Below are positions 1-10,512 of a stretch of 64,000 nt of DNA, in pieces. The notes beneath the pieces were generated by a model, which ran no database searches, had not been told where the DNA came from, and saw only the letters and a program-made list of their open reading frames with translations. The stretch comes from Saccharothrix deserti. Its GTDB lineage: Bacteria > Actinomycetota > Actinomycetes > Mycobacteriales > Pseudonocardiaceae. The stretch covers positions 1 to 64,000 of the forward strand of contig NZ_VKAB01000017.1 in the NCBI RefSeq assembly GCF_009769385.1, written 5' to 3'. Position numbers and translations under genes: made by a program. The number at the start of each line of letters is the position of its first letter. Within the stretch, counting starts at the first letter, position 1.

Positions 1-179
1 CCGAACCATCATCGGCCTGGAGATCGGCGGCACTCAACGTCACAGTCCCAAAAATCCTGTCTTCGCCCTACGAATTCCACAGAAGACTCAACTGATCCTG
101 TGTCTCACACCAGTCTGACAGAGAGGGCTCCCCCTGACTGCCACAGGAACACAGCAGGAACACAGAAGGAGCAGCCAGC
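1..179. other. Upstream region of the catalase gene; no gene seen
   Basis: This stretch shows no codon-biased reading frame on either strand. An AAGGAG Shine-Dalgarno core lies a few bases before the catalase GTG. Catalase genes of this clade in actinomycetes are often preceded by a Fur-type regulator, which would lie left of the window. A short minus-strand frame entering from position 33 cannot be judged because it leaves the window at once. Confidence 0.5.
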
Positions 180-1628
180 GTGACCGAAGCGCGTCACACC
201 ACCAACAACGCAGGCATCCCGGTCGCGAGCGACGACCACTCGCTGACCCTCGGCGCCAACGGCCCGATCCTGCTCCAGGACCACTACCTGATCGAGAAGA
301 ACGCCCAGTTCAACCGGGAGCGGGTGCCCGAGCGGGTCGTGCACGCCAAGGGTGGCGGTGCGTTCGGCTACTTCGAGACGACCGAGGACATCAGCCGGTT
401 CACCAAGGCGGCCCTGTTCCAGCCCGGCGTGAAGACCGAGACGCTGCTGCGCTTCTCGACCGTCGCCGGCGAGCTCGGCTCGCCCGACACGTGGCGGGAC
501 CCGCGCGGCTTCGCGCTGAAGTTCTACACGACCCAGGGCAACTACGACCTGGTCGGCAACAACACCCCGGTGTTCTTCCTGCGCGACCCGATCAAGTTCC
601 CGGACTTCATCCGCTCGCAGAAGCGCCGCGCCGACACCGGCCGTCGCGACCACGACATGCAGTGGGACTTCTGGACCCTCCAGCCGCAGACCGCGCACCA
701 GGTGACGTGGCTGATGGGCGACCGGGGCATCCCGAAGACCTGGCGGCACCAGAACGGCTACGGCTCGCACACCTACCTGTGGGAGAACGCGGCCGGCGAG
801 CGCTTCTGGGTCAAGTACCACTTCAAGACCGACCAGGGCATCGAGTGCCTGACCTCGGAAGAGGCCGCGAAGATCGCCGGTGAGGACGCCGACGCGCACC
901 GCGCCGACCTGTGGCACGCCATCGAGCGGGGCGAGTTCCCGTCGTGGACGCTGCACGTCCAGGTCATGCCGTACGAGGACGCGGCGTCGTACCGCTTCAA
1001 CCCGTTCGACCTGACCAAGGTGTGGCCGCACGCCGACTACCCGCTGATCAAGGTCGGCAGGCTGGTGCTGGACCGGAACCCGTCGGACTACTTCGCCGAG
1101 ATCGAGCAGGCCGCGTTCGAGCCGACGAACCTGGTGCCCGGCATCGGCACGTCGCCCGACAAGATGCTGATCGGCCGGATCTTCTCGTACCCGGACGCGC
1201 ACCGGTACCGGATCGGCGCGAACTACGCGCAGCTGCCGGTGAACCGGCCGAAGTCGCCGGTGAACTCGTACGCGAAGGACGGCGCGATGCGCTTCGCCAA
1301 CGCGGTCGACCCGGTGTACGCGCCCAACTCGTACGGCGGCCCGCACGCGTCGGTCGAGGCGGCCGGCGAGGTCGCGTCGTCGTACGGCGTCGAGGACGAG
1401 GTCACCCGTTCGGCTTACAAGCTGCACGCGGAGGACGACGACTGGGGCCAGGCCGGGACCCTGGTGCGCGAGATCATGGACGACGCGCAGCGCGAGCGCC
1501 TGGTGCAGACCGTGATCGCGCACGCGTCGAACGGCGTGTCCGAGCCGGTTCTGGAGCGCGTGTTCGAGTACTGGCGCAACATCGACAAGGAGACCGGCGA
1601 CAAGATCGCCGCCGCCTTCGGCAAGTGA
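180..1628 (+). CDS. katA: Monofunctional haem catalase (small-subunit, clade 3 type)
   Basis: The product is predicted to dismutate hydrogen peroxide to water and oxygen in the cytosol. The 482-residue length fits small-subunit catalases. The distal catalytic His is residue 55 in the motif [16 protein letters not shown]. The distal Asn is residue 128 in [12 protein letters not shown]. The proximal haem-ligand Tyr is residue 337 in the signature [14 protein letters not shown]. The GTG start is chosen because AAGGAG sits just upstream and the N-terminus matches the family. A GC-rich hairpin follows the stop, so the gene probably forms its own transcription unit. It is likely peroxide- or Fur-regulated, but I see no convincing operator inside the window. 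The family call is secure; the exact regulator is unknown. Confidence 0.95.
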
Positions 1629-1648
1629 TCACGCTCGACTGACGAGGA

Positions 1649-1670
1649 CCGCCCGGTGCACGCCGGGCGG
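1649..1670 (+). terminator. Hairpin terminator after katA
   Basis: CCGCCCGG and CCGGGCGG form a perfect 8-bp stem around a 6-nt loop, 20 bases after the katA stop. There is no clear T-run, as is common in actinomycetes. The convergent P450 gene ends just beyond, so the hairpin may act in both directions. Confidence 0.6.
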
Positions 1671-1692
1671 CCCTTCGTCGTGCCAAGCCTCC

Positions 1693-2826
1693 TCAGCCGC
1701 GCAACGCCACGGGCAGCGCCGTCAGCCGCGTTCCCTGGATACCGCCGACCCCGCTCTGCCGCAGTTCGCCGAACGGGACGGTGAGCCGGGCGTCCGGGAA
1801 ATCGGCCCGCAGCACCGCGACCGCCGCCCGCAGTTCGAGTTGGGCGAGTTGGGCGCCGATGCAGAAGTGCGGCCCGGCGCCGAAGCTCAGGTCCGCGCCG
1901 CCGTGGGCGTTGATCCCCTGGATGTCCACGAGCACCGGTGCCCCCGCCGGCAGCCGCACGCCGGCGAACTCGACCTCGGTGGTGGTGTACCGCCAGAGCG
2001 TGAACGGCGCGGGCGGGTAGCGGCGCAGGGTCGCGCGGACCAACTCGTCGTCCGGCGTTCCCCCGGGACCGTCCGCGAGCGCACGGGCGAGCAGGAAACC
2101 GAGGGAGGCGTCGGTGGTGAGCTGCCCGGCGAAGATCAACGCGAACAGGTGGTAGTTCACCTCGTCCGCGGTGGTCTCCGGGGGAACGCGCTCGCGCAGC
2201 TCGACGGCCAGACCGCGTTGACCGCTGTCGAGACCGGCCGCGCCCAGGTCCATGAGGGCGGAGATGGCGGCGCCCTGGTCGGCGGGGTCGGTGCCGAGCA
2301 TCAGGCGGCACGCCTCGGTGGCCCGGTCGACGCGGTCGAGGGGGACGCCGAGCAGGTCGAGCAGCACGGTGATCGGGTACCGGGTGGTGAAGTCCGCCGC
2401 CAGATCGACCTCCGCGGCCCCGGCCGACGCGGTGAGCAGGTCACGGGCGATCTCGTGGATCCGGTCGGACTGCTCGCGGATGCGCTTGCCGGTGAGCAGC
2501 GGGGCGTGTGCGCGACGCAGCCGGGCGTGCGCCGGCCCGTCGAGGGTGGTCAGCGAGGGCTGCTCGGCCGCGGTCCGCTCCAGGCCGGCCGTGCGGCGGT
2601 CCCAGGTCGGGGGTGCCTGCGCCGGGTCTTTGACCAGGCGCGGGTCGGCGAGGACCTGACGTGCGACGGCGTCGTCGGTGACGATCCACGCCCGACCGCC
2701 GGCCGGGGCGTCGACCTGGACGATCGGCCCGGCGGCGCGTAACGCGGCGCGATCGGGGGCCGGCTCGTCGATGCCGCGGCTCGTTGCGGCGAACGGATCG
2801 ACGTCCACGTGCGGTGCTTCGGTCAC
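1693..2826 (-). CDS. Cytochrome P450
   Basis: The product is a 377-residue soluble bacterial cytochrome P450, predicted to hydroxylate or otherwise oxidise a small molecule using ferredoxin-supplied electrons. The haem-binding loop FGAGPHFCIGAQLAQLEL carries the cysteine ligand at residue 322. The I-helix motif AGQLTT matches AGxxT, and the K-helix ExxR is ELVR. An ATG 21 bases upstream is possible, but the GTG used here has a GGGGGA ribosome-binding site at 2828-2835 and the ATG has none. The gene is transcribed away from a MarR regulator, with candidate operators between them, so that regulator probably controls it. No ferredoxin gene lies next to it. The substrate cannot be inferred. Confidence 0.9.
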   Translation of the reverse strand: MTEAPHVDVDPFAATSRGIDEPAPDRAALRAAGPIVQVDAPAGGRAWIVTDDAVARQVLADPRLVKDPAQAPPTWDRRTAGLERTAAEQPSLTTLDGPAHARLRRAHAPLLTGKRIREQSDRIHEIARDLLTASAGAAEVDLAADFTTRYPITVLLDLLGVPLDRVDRATEACRLMLGTDPADQGAAISALMDLGAAGLDSGQRGLAVELRERVPPETTADEVNYHLFALIFAGQLTTDASLGFLLARALADGPGGTPDDELVRATLRRYPPAPFTLWRYTTTEVEFAGVRLPAGAPVLVDIQGINAHGGADLSFGAGPHFCIGAQLAQLELRAAVAVLRADFPDARLTVPFGELRQSGVGGIQGTRLTALPVALRG

Positions 2827-2842
2827 GCTTCCCCCAGTTTGC

Positions 2843-2897
2843 TTCATTGAAAAGTAGCTTCACCATGAAGGTAAATTGGTCGCGGGTAGGTTGTCAA
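2843..2897 (-). promoter_or_regulatory. P450 promoter with overlapping MarR-type operators
   Basis: Reading the minus strand, TTGACA (plus 2892-2897) and TACCTT (plus 2868-2873) are 18 bp apart and form a good sigma-70-like promoter for the P450. The dyads TTCACCATGAA (2859-2869) and TTCATTGAA (2843-2851) share TTCA/TGAA half-sites. The first overlaps the -10 element. This is a typical arrangement for repression by the divergent MarR protein. The assignment is inference from pattern and position. Confidence 0.55.
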
Positions 2898-2933
2898 CGA
2901 CGACTGGTGATCTACAGCGGTGAAGGGGCGGCG

Positions 2934-3443
2934 GTGGAAGGGGAGCGGGTGGACGGCGGCGTCGCCGAACGGAGCGCACGCCTGCTGGACGGCCTGCGGG
3001 CGTTCGGCGCGCTCTACACCGACTTCACCGGCCGCTTCGCGGCGTGGCTCGGCCTGAACTCGACCGACGCCACCGCCCTCGTGGAGATCCTGTACGCGGA
3101 GGACAAGGGCACGCCCCTGTCCCCGACCCGCCTCAGCGAACGCCTCGGGCTGACCACGGGCGCGACCACGAACCTGATCAACCGCCTGGAAAAGCTCGGG
3201 CACGTCGTCCGCACGCGCGAACACGCCGACCGCCGCGTCGTGACCCTGCGCAGCAGCCCGCGCATCGAGAGGCCCGCGCGCGAGTTCTTCGGCCCGCTCG
3301 GCGCGCACTTCCAAGCCCTGGTCGCCCAGTACGAGCCCGCGGAGTTGGACCGGTTCGAGGACTTCCTCCACCGGCTGCACGCCACCATGGGCGACCTGCT
3401 CGCCGACCAGGGACCGGACCCCACCACCCGACCGCGTTCCTGA
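2934..3443 (+). CDS. MarR-family transcriptional regulator
   Basis: The product is about 169 residues, a winged-helix DNA-binding repressor of the MarR family. The region SPTRLSERLGLTTGATTN is the helix-turn-helix, followed by the recognition helix NLINRLEKLG and the wing TREHADRRVVTL with the usual D-R-R. Start choice is uncertain. The GTG at 2934 has AAGGGG at good spacing, but the GTGs at 2949 (after GGAAGGGGA) and 2907 are also in frame. It is divergent from the P450 gene, with TTCA/TGAA dyads between, so it probably represses that gene and responds to a small ligand. A link to the ebo-like operon downstream is possible but unsupported. Confidence 0.85.
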   Translation: MEGERVDGGVAERSARLLDGLRAFGALYTDFTGRFAAWLGLNSTDATALVEILYAEDKGTPLSPTRLSERLGLTTGATTNLINRLEKLGHVVRTREHADRRVVTLRSSPRIERPAREFFGPLGAHFQALVAQYEPAELDRFEDFLHRLHATMGDLLADQGPDPTTRPRS

Positions 3444-3710: not shown

Positions 3711-4868
3711 ATGACGGACGAACCCACTGGGCTCTGGCTGATCGGTGCGCGCGGATCGGTCGCGACGACGGCGATCAGCGGACTGCTCGCGCTGCGCGCC
3801 GGCCTCGCCCCACCGACCGGATGCGTCACCGGGCAGCCGGAGCTGGCCGACGTGCCGTTGCCGGGCTGGGACCACCTGGTCGTCGGTGGACACGACATCG
3901 TGCAGACGCCGTTGGTGAAACACGCCGAGGAGCTCGCCCACAGCGGTGTGCTGCCGCACGAGCTGCTCGTCCCGATCACGGCGGGTTTGCGCGCGGTCGA
4001 CGCCGAGATCCGCGACGGCTACCACCCCGAAACCCACCGGGGCAGCCAGGCGGAGGCGGCTCAGCGCCTGGTCGCGGACATCGCCGGGTTCCGCGAACGG
4101 CACCGCTTGGCGCGTGTCGTGGTGATCAACGTGGCCTCGACCGAGCCGCCGGTCGAGGCGGTCCCGGAGCACGGTGACCTCGCCGCGCTGGAGGCTGCGC
4201 TGGCCGACCCGCGGCGCTCGGTGCTGCCGCCCAGTTCGCTGGCCGCGTACGCGGCGCTGAGCGCGGACTGCCCGTTCGTCGACTTCACCCCGTCCACCGG
4301 TGTGGCTTTGCCCGCGCTCGACGAACTCGCCTGCCGACGGCGGCTGCCCTACGCGGGCCGGGACGGCAAGACGGGGGAGACGCTGGTGCGGACGGTGCTG
4401 GCGCCCATGTTCACCGCGCGGGCGCTGCACGTGCGGTCGTGGGCGGGCACCAACCTGCTCGGCGGTGGCGACGGCGCCACGTTGGACGACCCGGTGCGCG
4501 CGGTCAGCAAGCTGGAGTCGAAGGCACGCGGTCTCGCCGCGCTGCTGGGCAGTGACGTCACCGCGCCGCTGCACATCGACCACGTGCCGGATCTGCATGA
4601 GCAGAAGACGGCCTGGGACCACGTGTCGTTCGAGGGGTTCCTCGGCGCCCGGATGACCCTCGAGTTCACCTGGACCGGACTCGACTCGTCACTGGCCGCG
4701 CCGCTGGTGCTCGACCTCGCCCGCCTCGTCGCCGCCGCGCATGCCCACGGGCAGTGGGGCGCGCTCGGGTCGCTGGCGTTCTTCTTCAAAGACCCGATCG
4801 GCAGCGACGAACACCGGTTCGCCGAGCAGACCCGGGCGCTCTACCGCTGGGCACGGGAGTTGGCGTGA
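3711..4868 (+). CDS. Inositol-3-phosphate synthase homologue, first gene of the ebo-like operon
   Basis: The product is 385 residues, of the myo-inositol-1-phosphate synthase family. That family converts glucose 6-phosphate to inositol 3-phosphate using NAD. The N-terminal Rossmann segment LIGARGSVATTAISGLLAL binds NAD. Family motifs NVASTEPP, FTPSTGVALPALDEL, GRDGKTGETLVRTVLAPMF, SWAGTNLLGGGDG and HIDHVPDL follow in order. The start is the ATG with GAGGAGGCG upstream. Its stop overlaps the GTG of the next gene, which indicates translational coupling. Classical ebo clusters carry a dehydroquinate-synthase-like EboD. None is present here, so this NAD-dependent cyclase may take that place (inference). 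It may make a cyclitol other than the housekeeping inositol phosphate. Confidence 0.85.
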   Translation: MTDEPTGLWLIGARGSVATTAISGLLALRAGLAPPTGCVTGQPELADVPLPGWDHLVVGGHDIVQTPLVKHAEELAHSGVLPHELLVPITAGLRAVDAEIRDGYHPETHRGSQAEAAQRLVADIAGFRERHRLARVVVINVASTEPPVEAVPEHGDLAALEAALADPRRSVLPPSSLAAYAALSADCPFVDFTPSTGVALPALDELACRRRLPYAGRDGKTGETLVRTVLAPMFTARALHVRSWAGTNLLGGGDGATLDDPVRAVSKLESKARGLAALLGSDVTAPLHIDHVPDLHEQKTAWDHVSFEGFLGARMTLEFTWTGLDSSLAAPLVLDLARLVAAAHAHGQWGALGSLAFFFKDPIGSDEHRFAEQTRALYRWARELA

Positions 4869-5719
4869 AGGCCTACGCGGAACTGGTCAGGGCACCGGCC
4901 GCGTTGACCGTCCTCGGTGACACCGTCGCCGGGGCCGCCGCGTCCGGCAGGCCGTTGCGCGGCCGACGCCTGCTGCTGCCGCTGTCGTCGGTCGCGTTGT
5001 ACTGGTCCGGGATGGCGCTCAACGACTGGGCCGACCGCGACCTGGACGCGGTGGAGCGGCCTGAGCGCCCGATCCCGTCCGGCCGGATCAGCCCGCGTGC
5101 CGCGCTGGTCACCGCCGTTGCGCTCGGTGCGGCCGGCCTCCGTATCGCGGCGTATGCGGGTGGTCGCGACGCGCTCGGTGTCGCGGTGCCGCTGTCTGTT
5201 GCGGTCCTGTCCTACGACACGCTGCTGAAATCCACCGCGGCCGGACCGTTCGGCATGGCGGCCTGCCGTGCGCTCGACGTTCTCCTCGGGGCGGGTGGTG
5301 CGCGTGCGGGTGCGGCGGTGCCCGCGGCGATGGTCATGGCCGGCCACACGCTCGGCGTGACGGCGTTGTCGCGCGGCGAGGTCCACGGCACGTCGTCCGG
5401 TACCGCGAAGGCGGTGCTGGCGGGCACCGCCCTGACCGCGATCACCTCGGTCATCGGTCCGGTGGCCACCCGGCCGCACCGGCTGGCGGCGCTCGCCGGA
5501 GGCCTCGGGTACGCCGCGACGGTGGGGCGCGCCCAACTCGCGGCCGTCCGCGCGCCGGGGGCGGCGACGGTCCGTGCGGCGACGAAGACCGGCATCCACG
5601 GCATGGTGCTGCTGCAGTCCGCGCTGACCGCGCGAGGCGGGTCGCTGTTCGGCGCGGTCGCGGTCGCGGCCGCCCTGCCACTCGCCCGCCGGCTCGGCCG
5701 GAAGGTGGGTCCGACATGA
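4865..5719 (+). CDS. eboC: UbiA-family membrane prenyltransferase-like protein EboC
   Basis: The product is a 284-residue integral membrane protein of the UbiA superfamily, matching the EboC branch. The Asp-rich motif NDWADRDLDAVERPERP (about residues 55-71) is the usual metal and diphosphate site, and YDTLLK with CRALDVLLGAGG forms the second conserved region. Hydrophobic helices fill the rest, about eight to nine in total. The GTG start overlaps the preceding TGA, and the next ATG overlaps this stop. UbiA proteins transfer a prenyl group to an acceptor in the membrane. In ebo clusters the acceptor is unknown, and a role in membrane passage of a precursor has been proposed. Confidence 0.85.
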   Translation: MKAYAELVRAPAALTVLGDTVAGAAASGRPLRGRRLLLPLSSVALYWSGMALNDWADRDLDAVERPERPIPSGRISPRAALVTAVALGAAGLRIAAYAGGRDALGVAVPLSVAVLSYDTLLKSTAAGPFGMAACRALDVLLGAGGARAGAAVPAAMVMAGHTLGVTALSRGEVHGTSSGTAKAVLAGTALTAITSVIGPVATRPHRLAALAGGLGYAATVGRAQLAAVRAPGAATVRAATKTGIHGMVLLQSALTARGGSLFGAVAVAAALPLARRLGRKVGPT

Positions 5720-7131
5720 CGTTCCGCCTCGGTTACGGCACGAACGGGTTCGCCAACCACCGGCTTGGCGACGCCCTCGCGGTGATCGCCGATCTCGGCT
5801 ACACCGGGGTGGCGCTCACGCTCGACCACGCCCACCTCGACCCGTTCGCCGCCGACGTCGCACGGCAGACCGAGAAGGTCGCCGCACGACTGCGCGAACT
5901 GGACCTGGCAGTGGTGGTCGAGACCGGGGCCCGCTACCTGCTCGACCCGCGCCGCAAGCACCACCCGACGCTGGTCGGCGAGGACCGGGAAGTCCGGGTC
6001 GACTTCCTGCTGCGGGCCGTGCGGATCGCGGCCGACCTCGGCGCCGACTGCGTCTCCTTCTGGTCCGGTGTCCCGCCACCCGGCGTCGAGCCCGACGAGG
6101 CGTGGCGGCGGTTGCGCGCGGGCGTCGAGGCGGTGCTGGACGGCGCGGCCGGGCACGGGGTGCCGTTCGGGCTGGAGCCCGAGCCCGGCATGGTCGTCGA
6201 GCACGTGGCGCAGGCGTTGCGGCTGCACGCCGAACTCGGGTCACCGGAGCTGCTCGGGATCACCCTGGACGTGGGCCACTGCGTCGCCGTGGAGCCGGAG
6301 GACGCCGCCGCGTGCATCCGCCGAGTGGGAAACCTGCTGCTCAACGTGCAGCTCGACGACATGCTGCCCGGCGTCCACGAGCACCTGGAGTTCGGCGAAG
6401 GCACCCTGGACCTCCCCGCCACCCTCGGCGCGCTCGCGGAGATCGGCTACACCGGACTGGCCGCGGTCGAGCTGCCCAGGCACAGCCACGCCGCGCCCGA
6501 AGTCGCACGCAGGGCCATCGAAGCGCTCAAAGCGGCCCTACCCCCGGTCGACCACCCCTGGCTGGTGAAGGCCGAGCAGACCGTCCGCGCCGACCCCGCC
6601 TCGATCCGCACGCTCTTCCCCGCGGTCGGCCGCACGGTCGGCAGAACGCCGCTGCACGAGCACACCGACCCGCTCGGCGTCGTGCACGGCACCGTGGACG
6701 ACCTGGCCCGCACCCGGCTGCTGGTCGCCCTGGCCGGGGTGAGCGAGGACCTGGGCGCCGAACTGGTCTCCCTCTACCGCTTCGGCGACGACGCCGAACG
6801 GCGCGGTGTGCTGCGGGCACTCGCCGAGGTCGGGGACAAGGCCGTCACGCAGGGCGTCGAACTCGTCAAGGACGCACTGCGCACCAACGACACCAGGCTG
6901 GTCGCCGCCGCGCTCGGACCGTTCGCCGCGGACCACCTCGACCAACACACCTGGCGCCACGGCGTGTTGAAGTGCCTGTTCCTGGGAATCCCCCTCGCCG
7001 CCGTGGCCGGACTCGACCGGCGCGCGGACGCGGAACTGCTGCGCATGGTCGGCGCGTACGCCGACGAACGCCGTGCCGCCGGGCGCGACGTGCCGGCGGA
7101 GGCCGCCGAGTTGCTGAGGAGCGAGACCTGA
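5716..7131 (+). CDS. Xylose-isomerase-like TIM barrel fused to a C-terminal EboA domain
   Basis: The product is 471 residues in two parts. Residues about 1-275 are a sugar phosphate isomerase/epimerase-type TIM barrel. Its metal-site residues include EPEPGMVVEH, TLDVGHCVAVEPED, NVQLDDM, HLEFGEGTLD and AVELPRHSHAAP. Residues about 285-471 are EboA-like, with RADPASIRTLFPAVGRTVGR, DALRTNDTRLVAAALGPFAA and GVLKCLFLGIPLAAVAGLDR. EboA is usually a separate protein of about 200-250 residues, so this looks like a gene fusion. It would couple a sugar-acting enzyme to the EboA function, whose biochemistry is unknown. The ATG overlaps the previous stop and is preceded by GGAAGG. The last codons overlap the next ATG. 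Confidence 0.85.
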   Translation: MTFRLGYGTNGFANHRLGDALAVIADLGYTGVALTLDHAHLDPFAADVARQTEKVAARLRELDLAVVVETGARYLLDPRRKHHPTLVGEDREVRVDFLLRAVRIAADLGADCVSFWSGVPPPGVEPDEAWRRLRAGVEAVLDGAAGHGVPFGLEPEPGMVVEHVAQALRLHAELGSPELLGITLDVGHCVAVEPEDAAACIRRVGNLLLNVQLDDMLPGVHEHLEFGEGTLDLPATLGALAEIGYTGLAAVELPRHSHAAPEVARRAIEALKAALPPVDHPWLVKAEQTVRADPASIRTLFPAVGRTVGRTPLHEHTDPLGVVHGTVDDLARTRLLVALAGVSEDLGAELVSLYRFGDDAERRGVLRALAEVGDKAVTQGVELVKDALRTNDTRLVAAALGPFAADHLDQHTWRHGVLKCLFLGIPLAAVAGLDRRADAELLRMVGAYADERRAAGRDVPAEAAELLRSET

Positions 7132-7994
7132 TGCGCATCTTCGACCCGCACATCCACATGACCTCGCGCACGACGGACGACTACGAGGCGATGAGCCGGG
7201 CCGGGGTCCGCGCACTCGTCGAGCCCGCGTTCTGGCTCGGTCAGCCGCGCACGAGCGTCGCGTCGTTCACCGACTACTTCGACGGCCTGATCGGCTGGGA
7301 GAGGTTCCGGGCGGCGCAGTTCGGCATCCGGCACCACTGCGCGCTCGCGCTCAACCCCAAGGAAGCCAACGACCCGCGGTGCACGGGGGTGCTCGACGTG
7401 CTGCCGCGCTACCTCGAGAAGGACGGTGTCGTCGCGGTCGGCGAGGTCGGCTACGACTCGATGACCCCGGAGGAGGACGAGGCCTTCGCCCGACAGTTGC
7501 AACTCGCCGTCGAGCACGACCTCCCCGTGCTGGTGCACACGCCGCACCGGGACAAGGCGGCGGGCACGACGCGCACGCTCGACGTGGTCCGCGAGTCGGG
7601 CCTGCCACCCGAACGGGTCCTGGTGGACCACCTCAACGAGGTGACGGTGCGCGCCGTGGCCGACTCCGGCTGCTGGATGGGGTTCTCCATCTACCCGGAC
7701 ACCAAGATGGACGAGACCCGGATGGTGGCCGTCCTCGCCGAGTACGGCACGGACCGCGTCCTGGTGAACTCCGCCGCCGACTGGGGCCGGTCCGACCCGC
7801 TCAAGACCTACAAGACGGCGTTGGCGATGCTCGACGCGGGGTTCGGTGAAGCCGACGTGGACAAGGTGCTGTGGCGGAACCCGGTCGAGTTCTACGGCCA
7901 GAGCGGTCGCCTCAACCTGGACGACCCGTCCGGGACGTCCGACACGTCCGACACGTTCGCCGGGAACTCGGTCCTGAGAGGAGCACGACCGTGA
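7131..7994 (+). CDS. eboB: TatD-family metal-dependent hydrolase EboB
   Basis: The product is a 287-residue amidohydrolase-superfamily protein of the TatD/EboB type. The N-terminal metal motif is FDPHIHMTSR (HxH). VGEVGYDSMTPEEDEAF carries the bridging Glu. VLVHTPHRDK and VDHLNE carry the next His ligands, and VLVNSAADWGRSDPL carries the metal-binding Asp. It is expected to be cytosolic and to hydrolyse a phospho- or amide bond in the unknown ebo metabolite. The ATG lies in the TGATG overlap with the previous stop and has GAGGAG upstream. It precedes eboE, again with an overlapping GTGA. Confidence 0.88.
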   Translation: MRIFDPHIHMTSRTTDDYEAMSRAGVRALVEPAFWLGQPRTSVASFTDYFDGLIGWERFRAAQFGIRHHCALALNPKEANDPRCTGVLDVLPRYLEKDGVVAVGEVGYDSMTPEEDEAFARQLQLAVEHDLPVLVHTPHRDKAAGTTRTLDVVRESGLPPERVLVDHLNEVTVRAVADSGCWMGFSIYPDTKMDETRMVAVLAEYGTDRVLVNSAADWGRSDPLKTYKTALAMLDAGFGEADVDKVLWRNPVEFYGQSGRLNLDDPSGTSDTSDTFAGNSVLRGARP

Positions 7995-9112
7995 CCCCGC
8001 CGGCGTACTGCACCAACGTTCACCCGGCCGAGGACCTGCCCGGTGTCCTCGCCCAGCTCGACCGCTACGCCGTGCACGTGCGGGAGGACCTGGGGGTCGA
8101 CACGCTCGCGCTCGGCCTGTGGCTGGCCGAGCCGGTCGCGCACGGCCTCGCCAAGGACGAGACGGCCAGGCACGGTCTCGCGGCCGAACTGCGGGCCAGG
8201 GGGCTGACGGTGAGCACCCTCAACGCCTTTCCGTACGGCGGGTTCCACCAGGAGGTGGTCAAGCACTCGGTCTACCTGCCCCCGTGGACCGATCCGCGAC
8301 GGCTGGCGTACACGGCGGACTGCGCCGTCGTGCTGGCCGACCTGCTGCCCGACTCCGCCTCCTACGGCAGCATCTCGACGCTGCCGCTGGCCTGGCGGGA
8401 GCCGTGGACGGGCATCGACGACGAACGTGCGCGCGGCGCGCTCGACGCGTTCGCGCGCTTCCTGCGTGCCGAGGCGACCCGGAACGGCAGGCCGATCATG
8501 CTCGCGGTCGAGCCGGAGCCGGGCTGCGTGCTCGACACCGTCGCCGACGCCGTCGAGTGGATGGCCGGCCGCGTCGACCACGACCACATCGGCGTCTGCC
8601 TGGACACCTGCCACCTCGCCGTGTCGTTCGCCGACCCGGCGGAGGCCGTCGCGACGATCCACCGCGCCGGGCTGTCGGTGGTCAAGGTGCAGGCGTCGGC
8701 GGCGCTGGAGGTCGCCGAGCCGGGCACGGAGGAGGGCAGGCGGGCCATCGCCGCGTTCGCCGAACCCCGCTACCTGCACCAGGTCCGGGAGAACGACCCG
8801 GCGGGCGTGCTCGCGGCCGACGACCTGCCGGACGCGCTGGAGGAGTTGCCGGCGAAGCACCCGTGGCGGGTGCACTTCCACGTCCCGCTGCACGAGGCCC
8901 CGCCCGCGCCGCTCACCTCGACGACCGGTGTCCTGCTGGCGGCGACCGAAGCCCTGAGGGCGACGGTGGAGACCATGCCGCACTTCGAGGTGGAGACGTA
9001 CACGTGGACCGTCCTGCCCGGATCGCGCCACTCCGACGACGGACTGGCCAAGGGCATCGCGGCGGAACTGCGCTGGGCGATGGAGCACCTGGGCGAAGGG
9101 GTGTCGGCGTGA
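7991..9112 (+). CDS. eboE: Metabolite traffic protein EboE (xylose-isomerase-like TIM barrel)
   Basis: The product is a 373-residue TIM-barrel protein of the EboE family. It begins with the diagnostic YCTNVHPAEDLPGV and keeps LNAFPYGGFHQEVVK, AVEPEPGCVLD, GVCLDTCHLAVSF and KVQASAALEV, which are likely metal- and sugar-binding strands. The AP-endonuclease-2/xylose-isomerase fold predicts an isomerase, epimerase or lyase activity on a polyhydroxylated substrate. The start is the GTG overlapping the eboB stop, with AGAGGAG upstream. With the preceding fusion protein, the operon holds two distinct barrels of this fold. Confidence 0.88.
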   Translation: MTPPAYCTNVHPAEDLPGVLAQLDRYAVHVREDLGVDTLALGLWLAEPVAHGLAKDETARHGLAAELRARGLTVSTLNAFPYGGFHQEVVKHSVYLPPWTDPRRLAYTADCAVVLADLLPDSASYGSISTLPLAWREPWTGIDDERARGALDAFARFLRAEATRNGRPIMLAVEPEPGCVLDTVADAVEWMAGRVDHDHIGVCLDTCHLAVSFADPAEAVATIHRAGLSVVKVQASAALEVAEPGTEEGRRAIAAFAEPRYLHQVRENDPAGVLAADDLPDALEELPAKHPWRVHFHVPLHEAPPAPLTSTTGVLLAATEALRATVETMPHFEVETYTWTVLPGSRHSDDGLAKGIAAELRWAMEHLGEGVSA

Positions 9113-10512
9113 AACCGCTGGTCGTCGTGGACGTCGTCGGCATGACACCGGGTCTGCTGCGGCACATGCCCAACCTCGCCGCCTTGGGCCGTCACGGTTG
9201 GCAGGCCGCACTGGGGACCGTGTTGCCCGCCGTGACGTGCAGCGTCCAGTCCACGCTGCTCACCGGCCTCACCCCGGCGCGGCACGGCGTCGTCGGCAAC
9301 GGCTGGTACTTCCGCGACCTCGGCGAGGTCCACCTGTGGCGCCAGCACAACCGGCTGGTCGGCGGCGAGAAGGTGTGGGAGACCGCGCGCCGCGCGCACC
9401 CCGGCTACACGGCCGCCAACATCTGCTGGTGGTACGCCATGGGCGCGTCGACCGACGTCACCGTGACCCCGCGCCCGGTCTACCACGCGGACGGGCGCAA
9501 ATCGCCCGACTGCTACGTCCGCCCGCCCGAGCTGCACGACCGGCTCACCAGTGCCCTCGGTGAGTTCCCGCTGTTCCGGTACTGGGGGCCGACGGCCTCG
9601 CTCGCGTCGAGCGAGTGGATCGTGGGCGCGGCCCGGGAGGTGCTCGCGGAGCAGCGCCCCGACCTGCTGCTCGTCTACGTCCCGCACCTCGACTACGACC
9701 TCCAGCGGTTCGGTCCCGACAGCCCGCAGGCGGTGACGGCGGCGGCCGAGGTCGATGCGGCGCTCGCCCCGCTGCTCGTCGACGCCGACGCGGCCGGCGC
9801 GACCGTGGTGGCGTTGTCGGAGTACGGGATCACGGCGGCGCGCAGACCGGTCGACATCAACCGCCGACTGCGCGCCGAAGGGCTGCTGGAGGTCTACGCG
9901 CAGGCGGGCATGGAACTGCTGGACCCCTGGACGTCCCGCGCGTTCGCGGTGGCGGATCACCAGATCGCGCACGTCTACGTCGCGGATCCGGCCGACGTCC
10001 CGAGGGTCCGGGCGGTGCTCGACGAGTTGCCCGGCGTCGACGCGGTGCTCGACCGGGACGCCCAGGCCCTGGTGGACCTCGACCACGAACGGTCGGGCGA
10101 ACTGGTCGCCGTGGCCGAGCCCGACGCCTGGTTCACCTACTACTACTGGACCGACGACAGCCGTGCGCCGGACTTCGCCCGGGGTGTGGAGATCCACCGC
10201 AAGCCGGGGTACGACCCGGCCGAGCTGTTCTTCGACCCGGCGGACCGGTTCGCGAAGGCACGGGCCGGGCTCGCCCTGGCCCGCAAGAAGCTCGGCCTCC
10301 GCTACGCGATGAACGTGGTGCCGCTCGACCCGTCGTGCGTGCGGGGCACCCACGGCCGGCTGCCCGACCGCGTCGAGGACGGTCCGGTGCTGCTGTGCTC
10401 GAACGACGTCGTGCCGGCGGCGGTCGAGCGCGCCGGCCGGATCGCCGCCACCGATGTGCGGGACCTCCTGCTGGACCTCCAGGGGATACCCGCGACGGAA
10501 CCCGTTCGGTGA
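9109..10512 (+). CDS. eboF: EboF-like nucleotide pyrophosphatase/phosphodiesterase family protein
   Basis: The product is a 467-residue protein of the alkaline-phosphatase superfamily, nucleotide pyrophosphatase type. VVVDVVGMTPG supplies the first metal Asp. AVTCSVQSTLLTGLTPARHG carries the Thr nucleophile region. VYVPHLDYDLQRFGP carries Asp ligands, and VADHQIAHVYVAD supplies the last His region. Where many homologues have SDHG there is LSEYGI, a deviation at a metal site that may be typical of the ebo branch. It is the last gene of the operon, its GTG overlapping the eboE stop. It is presumably cytosolic, as no signal peptide is seen. The likely role is release of a phosphorylated or nucleotidyl group from the pathway intermediate. 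Confidence 0.85.
   Translation: MKPLVVVDVVGMTPGLLRHMPNLAALGRHGWQAALGTVLPAVTCSVQSTLLTGLTPARHGVVGNGWYFRDLGEVHLWRQHNRLVGGEKVWETARRAHPGYTAANICWWYAMGASTDVTVTPRPVYHADGRKSPDCYVRPPELHDRLTSALGEFPLFRYWGPTASLASSEWIVGAAREVLAEQRPDLLLVYVPHLDYDLQRFGPDSPQAVTAAAEVDAALAPLLVDADAAGATVVALSEYGITAARRPVDINRRLRAEGLLEVYAQAGMELLDPWTSRAFAVADHQIAHVYVADPADVPRVRAVLDELPGVDAVLDRDAQALVDLDHERSGELVAVAEPDAWFTYYYWTDDSRAPDFARGVEIHRKPGYDPAELFFDPADRFAKARAGLALARKKLGLRYAMNVVPLDPSCVRGTHGRLPDRVEDGPVLLCSNDVVPAAVERAGRIAATDVRDLLLDLQGIPATEPVR

Follow-up and report, generated by a model that had tools for sequence, protein, structure and literature searches.

An ebo-type operon that carries an inositol-phosphate-synthase homolog in Saccharothrix deserti and other Actinobacteria

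Introduction

What does a homolog of myo-inositol-phosphate synthase (MIPS) do at the head of an operon whose other genes resemble the ebo genes, and what kind of compound might such an operon make? The question is raised by a 64,000-nucleotide stretch of the Saccharothrix deserti genome (the window, i.e., the whole stretch that was analyzed), in which six open frames, each overlapping the next, occupy positions 3711 to 10512. The ebo genes were named in 2016 (excerpts of PMC5133447), and the label "metabolite traffic" was inherited from the work on scytonemin (excerpts of PMC6282210). As described in the same excerpts, the ebo operon of eustigmatophyte plastids, cyanobacteria, and Bacteroidota likewise unites an EboA domain, a TatD-like EboB, a UbiA-like EboC, EboE, and an EboF-type phosphodiesterase. 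In the S. deserti operon, however, a MIPS homolog and an extra isomerase domain replace EboD, the prenyltransferase belongs to the SCO3242 family, and EboA is fused to the isomerase. No description of a MIPS-containing ebo operon was found among the literature matches listed, and the word "inositol" had no match in the main texts of PMC5133447, PMC6282210, and PMC9235831.

Gene content of the operon

The preliminary description had read the locus as six genes linked end to end, and all six open frames, on the forward strand, and all five overlaps were found. The first gene (3711 to 4868) encodes the MIPS homolog, which was matched by the Pfam models PF07994 (174 bits) and PF01658 (103 bits). 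It overlaps (GTGA, 4865 to 4868) the second gene (4865 to 5719), encoding an EboC-like, UbiA-type prenyltransferase that scored 353.5 bits on the model SCO3242_trans (cut-off, 260) and 150 bits on the EboC model NF035940 (cut-off, 250). At 96 bits, the EboC encoded by the EboD-type locus L033 likewise fell below the latter cut-off. The first aspartate-rich motif of the prenyltransferase, NDxxDxxxD at residues 53 to 61 (N53, D54, D57, and D61), was identical in all 79 aligned rows. The namesake of the matching NCBIfam model is SCO3242 of Streptomyces coelicolor; in excerpts of PMC3610822, SCO3243 is listed as a myo-inositol phosphate synthase, like the MIPS of our operon, but both SCO3242 and SCO3243 are listed among the genes of the CDA cluster, unlike the window operon.

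The third gene (5716 to 7131, sharing ATGA at 5716 to 5719 with the second) joins a sugar-isomerase-type TIM barrel (AP_endonuc_2, residues 22 to 273 by Pfam) to an EboA domain (residues 328 to 466) within a single protein. The EboA domain scored 158 bits on NF035938 (cut-off, 50), and the EboA-family model gave the fusion protein 62 bits, below its cut-off of 320. An AlphaFold model of the whole fusion had a pLDDT of 91.8 and a pTM of 0.62, and its structural matches fell on the isomerase part. A single open frame encodes both parts at 44 of 82 loci, and other loci have two frames. In six annotated Streptomyces plasmid loci, the parts are separate genes. An EboA fusion in Actinobacteria is already mentioned, as "data not shown," in the available text of PMC5133447.

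The fourth gene (7131 to 7994, overlapping at 7131 within TGATG) encodes an EboB-like, TatD-like metal-dependent hydrolase (PF01026, TatD_DNase, 54 bits), whose closest solved relative by sequence was AF_1765 (3guw; E value, 4e-28). It is followed, with an overlap at 7991 to 7994 (GTGA), by the gene for EboE (7991 to 9112), a xylose-isomerase-like TIM barrel that scored 420.5 bits on NF035939 (cut-off, 250). Both EboE and the N-terminal domain of the fusion matched ketose 3-epimerases, although such matches do not indicate the substrate. The last gene (9109 to 10512, overlapping EboE by GTGA at 9109 to 9112) encodes an EboF-like type I phosphodiesterase/nucleotide pyrophosphatase (PF01663, 217 bits) with an invariant T43. 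Compared with phosphonoacetate hydrolase, a DH pair is replaced by E238-Y239 and a further H by Q199 in all 81 rows. We take these to be metal-ligand positions; with the three replaced, the EboF-like protein lacks the full two-metal ligand set of the type I phosphodiesterase/NPP enzymes.

The kinship to ebo that had been proposed for these genes was thus confirmed by Pfam and NCBIfam profiles. The assignment of the individual members stood for the EboA domain and the EboB-, EboE-, and EboF-type proteins, but not for EboC proper, given the score on NF035940. The S. deserti genome also contains a second complete copy of the operon (locus L024, on contig C16).

The MIPS homolog

Seven residues of the MIPS homolog (K220, N248, D254, K271, K299, D325, and K360) were invariant in all 75 aligned rows, 74 of which also had K267. 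The alanine-substituted positions of three Archaeoglobus fulgidus MIPS entries align with the invariant K271, K360, and N248, and the window protein retains the lysines and the asparagine that are catalytic in A. fulgidus MIPS. The two belong to the same family, with the catalytic residues common to both (217 bits against the archaeal structure 1u1i). Mycobacterium tuberculosis-type Ino1 also has PF01658 in common with the window protein, but its similarity was only 30 bits (1gr0), and it belongs to a separate tree group. The homolog may carry out the NAD-dependent cyclization of glucose 6-phosphate that marks the MIPS family. MIPS homologs can also make other rings, as in the case of 6k96, a relative that synthesizes a five-membered cyclitol phosphate and has low similarity to the window protein (43 bits); this counts against the reading of the operon that we favor below.

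We asked whether the homolog might simply be a housekeeping enzyme that covers the ordinary inositol phosphate needs of the cell and is found next to the ebo genes by accident. Its catalytic residues are indeed those of a true MIPS, and in one of 36 ebo genomes (G268) the ebo-linked gene is the sole MIPS gene. However, two or more MIPS genes were present in 34 of the 36 genomes, and MIPS is linked to ebo genes in 74 of 81 distinct loci. In a tree with housekeeping Ino1, moreover, all 30 other MIPS rows of the ebo-bearing genomes formed a group of their own with a support of 100, these rows being partial (256 to 280 aa) and very distant and their alignment rough. Ordinary inositol supply is therefore a very improbable explanation, and the separate tree group together with the conserved linkage bears out the dedicated role previously suggested for this gene.

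Occurrence of MIPS and EboD at ebo loci

The search for EboE gave 86 rows, of which 82 were neither own matches nor weak fragments, and 59 of those were fetched. Among the actinobacterial loci, L009 and L080 denote a single site, and the 82 loci therefore correspond to 81 distinct ones. The whole gene set was found in one order and on one strand in 72 of the 82 loci (71 of the 81 distinct ones), a recurrence indicating that the operon did not arise by chance. MIPS occurred with a partial set in three further loci, and the check for co-occurrence in actinobacterial genomes thus found it linked in the 74 of 81 mentioned above. EboD was present in 1 of the 81, and MIPS and EboD occurred together in none. 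Counting against a MIPS-type variant, L030 and L081 have all the other genes but no MIPS within the fetched stretch. Planctomycete loci (L012 to L019, L022, and L023) showed EboE without any other ebo gene by the profiles used; the same profiles also missed EboA in L020, L021, and L033, and these EboE-only loci were excluded from the operon counts. EboE had no match in the phage collection.

No EboD lies inside the operon. Elsewhere in the genome, there are two genes of the 3-dehydroquinate (DHQ)-synthase type, and an EboD hidden among them was rejected, as they scored 173 and 223 bits on NF004852, below a cut-off of 333 that three ebo-linked EboD proteins exceeded (491 to 563 bits). The absence of EboD noted from the window alone therefore extends to the genome. 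The second of these genes (L028) is presumably a valiolone-type cyclase, because the frame adjoining it resembles, by eye, a ROK-type kinase. The NF004852 cut-off was exceeded in none of 150 genomes of the family and in 1 of 396 genomes of the phylum, namely, G381, whose EboD-type locus is the sole one among the 81.

The same either-or pattern was seen on plasmids. Plasmid records with an eboE match numbered 48 and 47, mostly identical; 21 were opened, of which 16 were annotated over the stretch and five were not. Nine annotated loci from Pseudomonadota, Deinococcota, and Bacteroidota had a DHQ-synthase-type gene and no inositol-3-phosphate synthase, six from Streptomyces had inositol-3-phosphate synthase and no DHQ-synthase-type gene, and one record had eboE alone. 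In an EboE tree, the MIPS-type loci, a label that takes in three loci in which no MIPS was found (L030, L054, and L081), and the EboD-type loci lay on opposite sides of one well-supported split. This suggests that the cyclases were exchanged in one ancient swap, so that the locus counts are not independent and the either-or pattern may represent a single event.

Between the MIPS-type loci and seven EboD-type loci, EboB, EboE, and EboF retained most of their near-invariant positions (71 shared versus 1 type-specific, 59 versus 6, and 122 versus 6, respectively). Prenyltransferase C, on the other hand, had 22 shared versus 10 type-specific positions, among the latter D138, which is present in 82 of 82 MIPS-type and 0 of 7 EboD-type proteins. 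Such a ratio is expected if the prenyl acceptor has changed, although, given the split in the EboE tree, the differences may also be plain divergence.

Neighboring genes

Neighbors were compared in 79 loci, a set that leaves out L009, L033, and L047. A gene for a predicted secreted GSDH-type beta-propeller protein lay on the same strand in 53 of them, and relatives of a ThuA/GSDH/3-keto-disaccharide-hydrolase/CBM6 protein adjoined 58. Two further AP_endonuc_2 genes were found downstream in 32 and 40 of the 79 loci, and sugar-type ABC genes flank the second S. deserti copy (L024) as well as some other loci. These neighbors would fit a catabolic pathway for oxidized sugars, in which the secreted protein oxidizes and cleaves glycosides via 3-keto forms, an ABC importer takes up the sugars, and these are then processed by the isomerases and the MIPS-like enzyme, with no prenylated cyclitol exported. 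However, sugar breakdown offers no evident role for a UbiA prenyltransferase whose NDxxDxxxD motif is invariant, the window copy is without such neighbors, and the same genes lie inside a type II polyketide synthase cluster on a Streptomyces plasmid and beside a nonribosomal peptide synthetase gene on another, all of which makes a catabolic role rather unlikely.

In four of the six annotated MIPS-type plasmid loci, all from Streptomyces, a ScyE-family gene lies directly upstream of MIPS, and ScyD/ScyE genes accompany the MIPS-ebo genes on these four plasmids as they do in scytonemin clusters. According to excerpts of PMC6282210, the ebo deletion mutants of Nostoc (eboD not among them) all held the scytonemin monomer in the cytoplasm. 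Together with the differing kinds of biosynthetic clusters that host the operon, this would agree with a system that helps various small molecules to cross the membrane, in the way suggested for the scytonemin monomer, and in which MIPS supplies only the head group of a lipid carrier. Against such a traffic role, no transporter family was recognized among the six genes by Pfam or NCBIfam, a lipid-linked monomer was not seen in Nostoc (excerpts of PMC6282210), and the strong link to GSDH-type genes is left unexplained; we hold it to be improbable.

The beta-propeller neighbors also allow a broader proposal, in which the ebo pathway, whether of the EboD or the MIPS type, would provide secreted beta-propeller oxidoreductases with an accessory or cofactor that is derived from a cyclitol and prenyl-assembled. 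The oxidoreductases would be GSDH/ThuA proteins in Actinobacteria, ScyE in scytonemin synthesis, and PQQ- and PVC-type dehydrogenases in Alphaproteobacteria. In addition to the GSDH and ScyE genes, the proposal is favored by a gene for a PQQ-type dehydrogenase (PF01011, 634.7 bits) that follows EboB in Salipiger at a distance of about 500 bases and by a PVC-type heme-binding "dehydrogenase" and a cytochrome c near the ebo genes in Ketogulonicigenium. The cut-off for PqqE was exceeded in 15 of the 36 ebo genomes; among the 25 with an ebo-adjacent GSDH gene, counted by hand, it was above cut-off in 11 and not in 14, where PQQ is probably not made by the known route, in favor of the proposal. Against it, the other 11 do have PqqE, PQQ could be imported, and a neighbor of this kind was found in only 3 of 12 EboD-type loci (seven scanned with profiles and five judged by annotation). 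If the proposal were true, the "export" phenotype would result from the loss of a periplasmic reaction, but the monomer stayed in the cytoplasm of the mutants. We consider this proposal decidedly doubtful.

As a genome-wide partner of ebo, ScyE was rejected as weak. Among the matches listed and by hand count, strong ScyE matches (E value under 1e-20) occurred in at least 26 of 396 genomes, comprising at least 5 of the 19 EboE-positive genomes and at least 21 of the remaining 377. In the five that were EboE-positive, ScyE never lay beside the ebo locus.

Discussion

The place taken in other lineages by the sugar-phosphate cyclase EboD is filled here by a dedicated MIPS-type enzyme, and the proteins B, E, and F retain most near-invariant residues in both types. 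In the reading that we consider best, EboC would prenylate a cyclitol that derives from a sugar phosphate, for use at the membrane or beyond it. Starting from glucose 6-phosphate or some comparable sugar phosphate, the MIPS homolog would form a cyclitol phosphate by cyclization, and the TIM-barrel isomerases (the N-terminal domain of the fusion and EboE) would rearrange the ring or its keto form. The membrane prenyltransferase would join the cyclitol to a prenyl chain, ester or phosphate groups may be cleaved by EboB and EboF, and EboA may organize the complex. The prenylated cyclitol would act at or outside the membrane, often with a secreted GSDH- or ScyE-type beta-propeller partner, as a carrier or accessory. 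We give this predicted chemistry about an even chance of being correct, and the same balanced estimate applies to the operon as a MIPS-type variant of the ebo pathway, which we judge jointly with the mechanism. Two further observations weigh against the prenylated-cyclitol reading: no such beta-propeller gene adjoins the window copy or its nearest relative, and, in excerpts of PMC9235831, the in vitro substrates farnesylated by an EboC-type enzyme were quinolines such as 8-HQA, not a cyclitol.

The GSDH-type neighbor in 53 of 79 loci and the ScyD/ScyE genes on four plasmids are new, and this tight link to beta-propeller proteins offers a second handle on the purpose of the compound. The presence of MIPS for EboD amounts to a natural swap test, which hints at a ring of sugar origin as the core of the ebo compound. 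Should EboC be fed by MIPS as well as by EboD, the compound would be a prenylated cyclitol, and genetically easy Streptomyces hosts, together with the well-understood chemistry of the cyclase, would open a route to it.

The MIPS-type operon and its surroundings

The operon at the start of contig C12 of the 10.8-Mb Saccharothrix deserti draft genome consists of six genes with head-to-tail overlaps, spanning 3711 to 10512 as given in the preliminary description. They encode, in order, an inositol-phosphate-synthase homologue (MIPS), a UbiA prenyltransferase of the SCO3242 family, a sugar-isomerase-type TIM barrel fused to an EboA domain, a TatD-like hydrolase, EboE, and a type I phosphodiesterase. 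The gene assignments made earlier also hold, except that the prenyltransferase, although EboC-like, falls below NCBI's EboC cut-off. The part families are already known, and NCBI annotates the genes singly; the EboA fusion was mentioned already in 2016, in PMC5133447.

Upstream lie catalase-like and P450-like genes (judged by eye) and a MarR gene, spanning 157-3272, and downstream a methyltransferase-like gene (by eye). The nearest named locus is that of Saccharothrix sp. ALI-22-I (EboE identity, 91%). At the same place in the nearest relative, locus L009, the catalase-like, P450-like, and MarR genes are absent and their flanks adjoin.

A second complete MIPS-type operon (L024) is present on contig C16 of the same genome at about 160-167 kb, preceded by sugar-type ABC genes and followed by an isomerase and a LacI-type regulator. 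We failed to find EboD in this genome, its two DHQ-synthase-type genes scoring 173 and 223 bits on the EboD profile NF004852 (cut-off, 333). On contig C2, a DHQ-synthase-type cyclase (L028) adjoins a frame resembling a ROK-type kinase by eye, a neighborhood that we take to be possibly a valiolone-type pathway.

Distribution across Actinobacteria

EboE scored above its cut-off in 18 of 396 phylum genomes and 79 of 150 family genomes. The actinobacterial set comprised 82 loci (81 distinct), whose frames we scanned with iterated profiles built from the window proteins. MIPS, C, isomerase, EboA, B, E, and F were all found in the same order on one strand in 72/82 loci (71/81 distinct), and three further loci had MIPS with only a partial set. 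The seven loci without MIPS comprise L033, with an EboD-type gene in its place; L054 and L096, which run off the contig end; L030 and L081, where the remaining ebo genes are present; L047, with EboE in pieces; and L091, with EboE alone. In the stretch fetched for L091, this sole EboE is flanked by long same-strand ThuA/GSDH-type proteins. Ten planctomycete loci (L012-L019, L022, and L023) had EboE and no other ebo gene nearby by the profiles used, in agreement with the absence of clustering described in PMC5133447.

The ebo-linked MIPS and its exclusion of EboD

At least two PF01658 matches were found in 34 of the 36 ebo genomes. In the 4.3-Mb genome G268 (locus L029), the ebo-linked MIPS is the sole match. 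Thirty non-ebo MIPS rows, all partial (256-280 aa), formed one group in the tree (support, 100) against the ebo-type and archaeal MIPS. Against solved structures, the window MIPS scored 217 bits with Archaeoglobus fulgidus MIPS but 30 bits with Mycobacterium tuberculosis Ino1. Its K271, K360, and N248 align with positions mutated to alanine in three A. fulgidus entries, and these residues, together with K220, D254, K299, and D325, are identical in 75/75 MIPS rows. The window MIPS should therefore be an active cyclase of the MIPS family.

MIPS and EboD are mutually exclusive among the ebo loci compared. The ebo-linked EboD proteins from L020, L021, and L033 score 491-563 bits on NF004852; none of the 150 family genomes exceeded the cut-off, and among the 396 phylum genomes only G381, which holds L033, did so. 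We opened 21 plasmid records, 16 of which were annotated over the stretch. Nine of these, all non-actinobacterial, carry, judged by annotation, a 3-dehydroquinate synthase gene and no inositol-3-phosphate synthase; six, all from Streptomyces, carry the reverse, and one has eboE alone. On both a Mycetohabitans plasmid (L187) and an Aureibacter plasmid (L202), the EboD-type ebo genes are immediately preceded by genes for a ferritin-like protein (PF12902) and a hypothetical protein.

In an EboE tree of 84 rows, made by a quick method and including three MIPS-labelled rows in which no MIPS was found, one strongly supported branch separated the MIPS-type from the EboD-type loci. The cyclase exchange is therefore best seen as one ancient event, not many.

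Residues that follow the cyclase type

We aligned MIPS-type rows against seven EboD-type loci, counting as shared those positions near-invariant in both (at least 95% in the MIPS type and at least 6/7 in the EboD type) and as type-specific those near-invariant in the MIPS type and absent from the EboD type. Shared and type-specific positions numbered 71 and 1 in EboB, 59 and 6 in EboE, 122 and 6 in EboF, and 22 and 10 in prenyltransferase C. One of these ten prenyltransferase positions, D138, lies close to the invariant R135; the aspartate is present in 82/82 MIPS-type rows and replaced by V or S in 7/7 EboD-type rows. From these alignments, the type-specific C positions would fit a changed prenyl acceptor; they could also stem from overall divergence of C.

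EboF retains one aspartate, and a threonine aligned with the residue mutated in 3t02. Its Q199, E238, and Y239, found in 81/81 rows of both types, occupy the metal-ligand positions of phosphonoacetate hydrolase, and EboF may have a chemistry other than plain phosphodiester cleavage.

Beta-propeller and predicted secreted neighbors

A relative of protein L066:1-4149, which combines ThuA, GSDH, PKD, CBM6, 3-keto-disaccharide hydrolase, and FIMAH domains, adjoins the operon in 58/79 loci, many of these relatives having only part of its domains. Proteins of this type are predicted from their domain types to be secreted. A GSDH domain lies near the operon in 53/79 loci, always on the operon's strand, upstream (at most 600 bases away) in 39 and downstream in 13. 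The S. deserti genome has about 12 GSDH genes (14 matches) in 10.8 Mb, so roughly 2 in 100 loci would be expected by chance. No GSDH-, ScyE-, or dehydrogenase-type neighbor stands beside the window copy; contig C16, which carries the second copy, has GSDH genes at 177 kb and 186 kb. Downstream of EboF, two extra AP_endonuc_2 genes occur, one in 32 and the other in 40 of the 79 loci.

In four Streptomyces plasmids, a ScyD/ScyE-family gene immediately precedes MIPS, an assignment profile-tested on L190 (255 bits; cut-off, 80) and made by annotation for the others. In L193, an unannotated Streptomyces plasmid stretch, eboE is followed after about 3.7 kb by a ScyE-type frame on the opposite strand. 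Among EboD-type loci, Salipiger has a PQQ-type dehydrogenase after EboB, Ketogulonicigenium has a PVC-type heme-binding "dehydrogenase" and a cytochrome c near its ebo cluster, and L021 has a weak GSDH match (63 bits) about 7 kb from the ebo genes on the other strand. A type II PKS cluster, presumably of kinamycin-like make-up, is present on two Streptomyces plasmids, of which L188 carries the whole MIPS-ebo operon and L191 eboE alone. ScyE belongs to the beta-propeller clan, is predicted to be periplasmic, and is required for scytonemin, according to PMC4870267 and PMC12188702.

A possible prenylated cyclitol

We found no description of the MIPS-type operon, the EboD exclusion, or the GSDH/ScyE link among the matches listed from the open-licence literature. 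Cyclase, prenyltransferase, isomerases, and hydrolases have been kept as a group across a change of cyclase type. The simplest way to account for this is a prenylated cyclitol pathway, all of whose chemical steps are inferred. A cyclitol as the EboD product was already proposed in PMC5133447, and the ebo product was proposed as a carrier in PMC6282210. The association with GSDH/ScyE proteins suggests a site of action for the product, which may serve as a carrier or as an accessory of the secreted protein.
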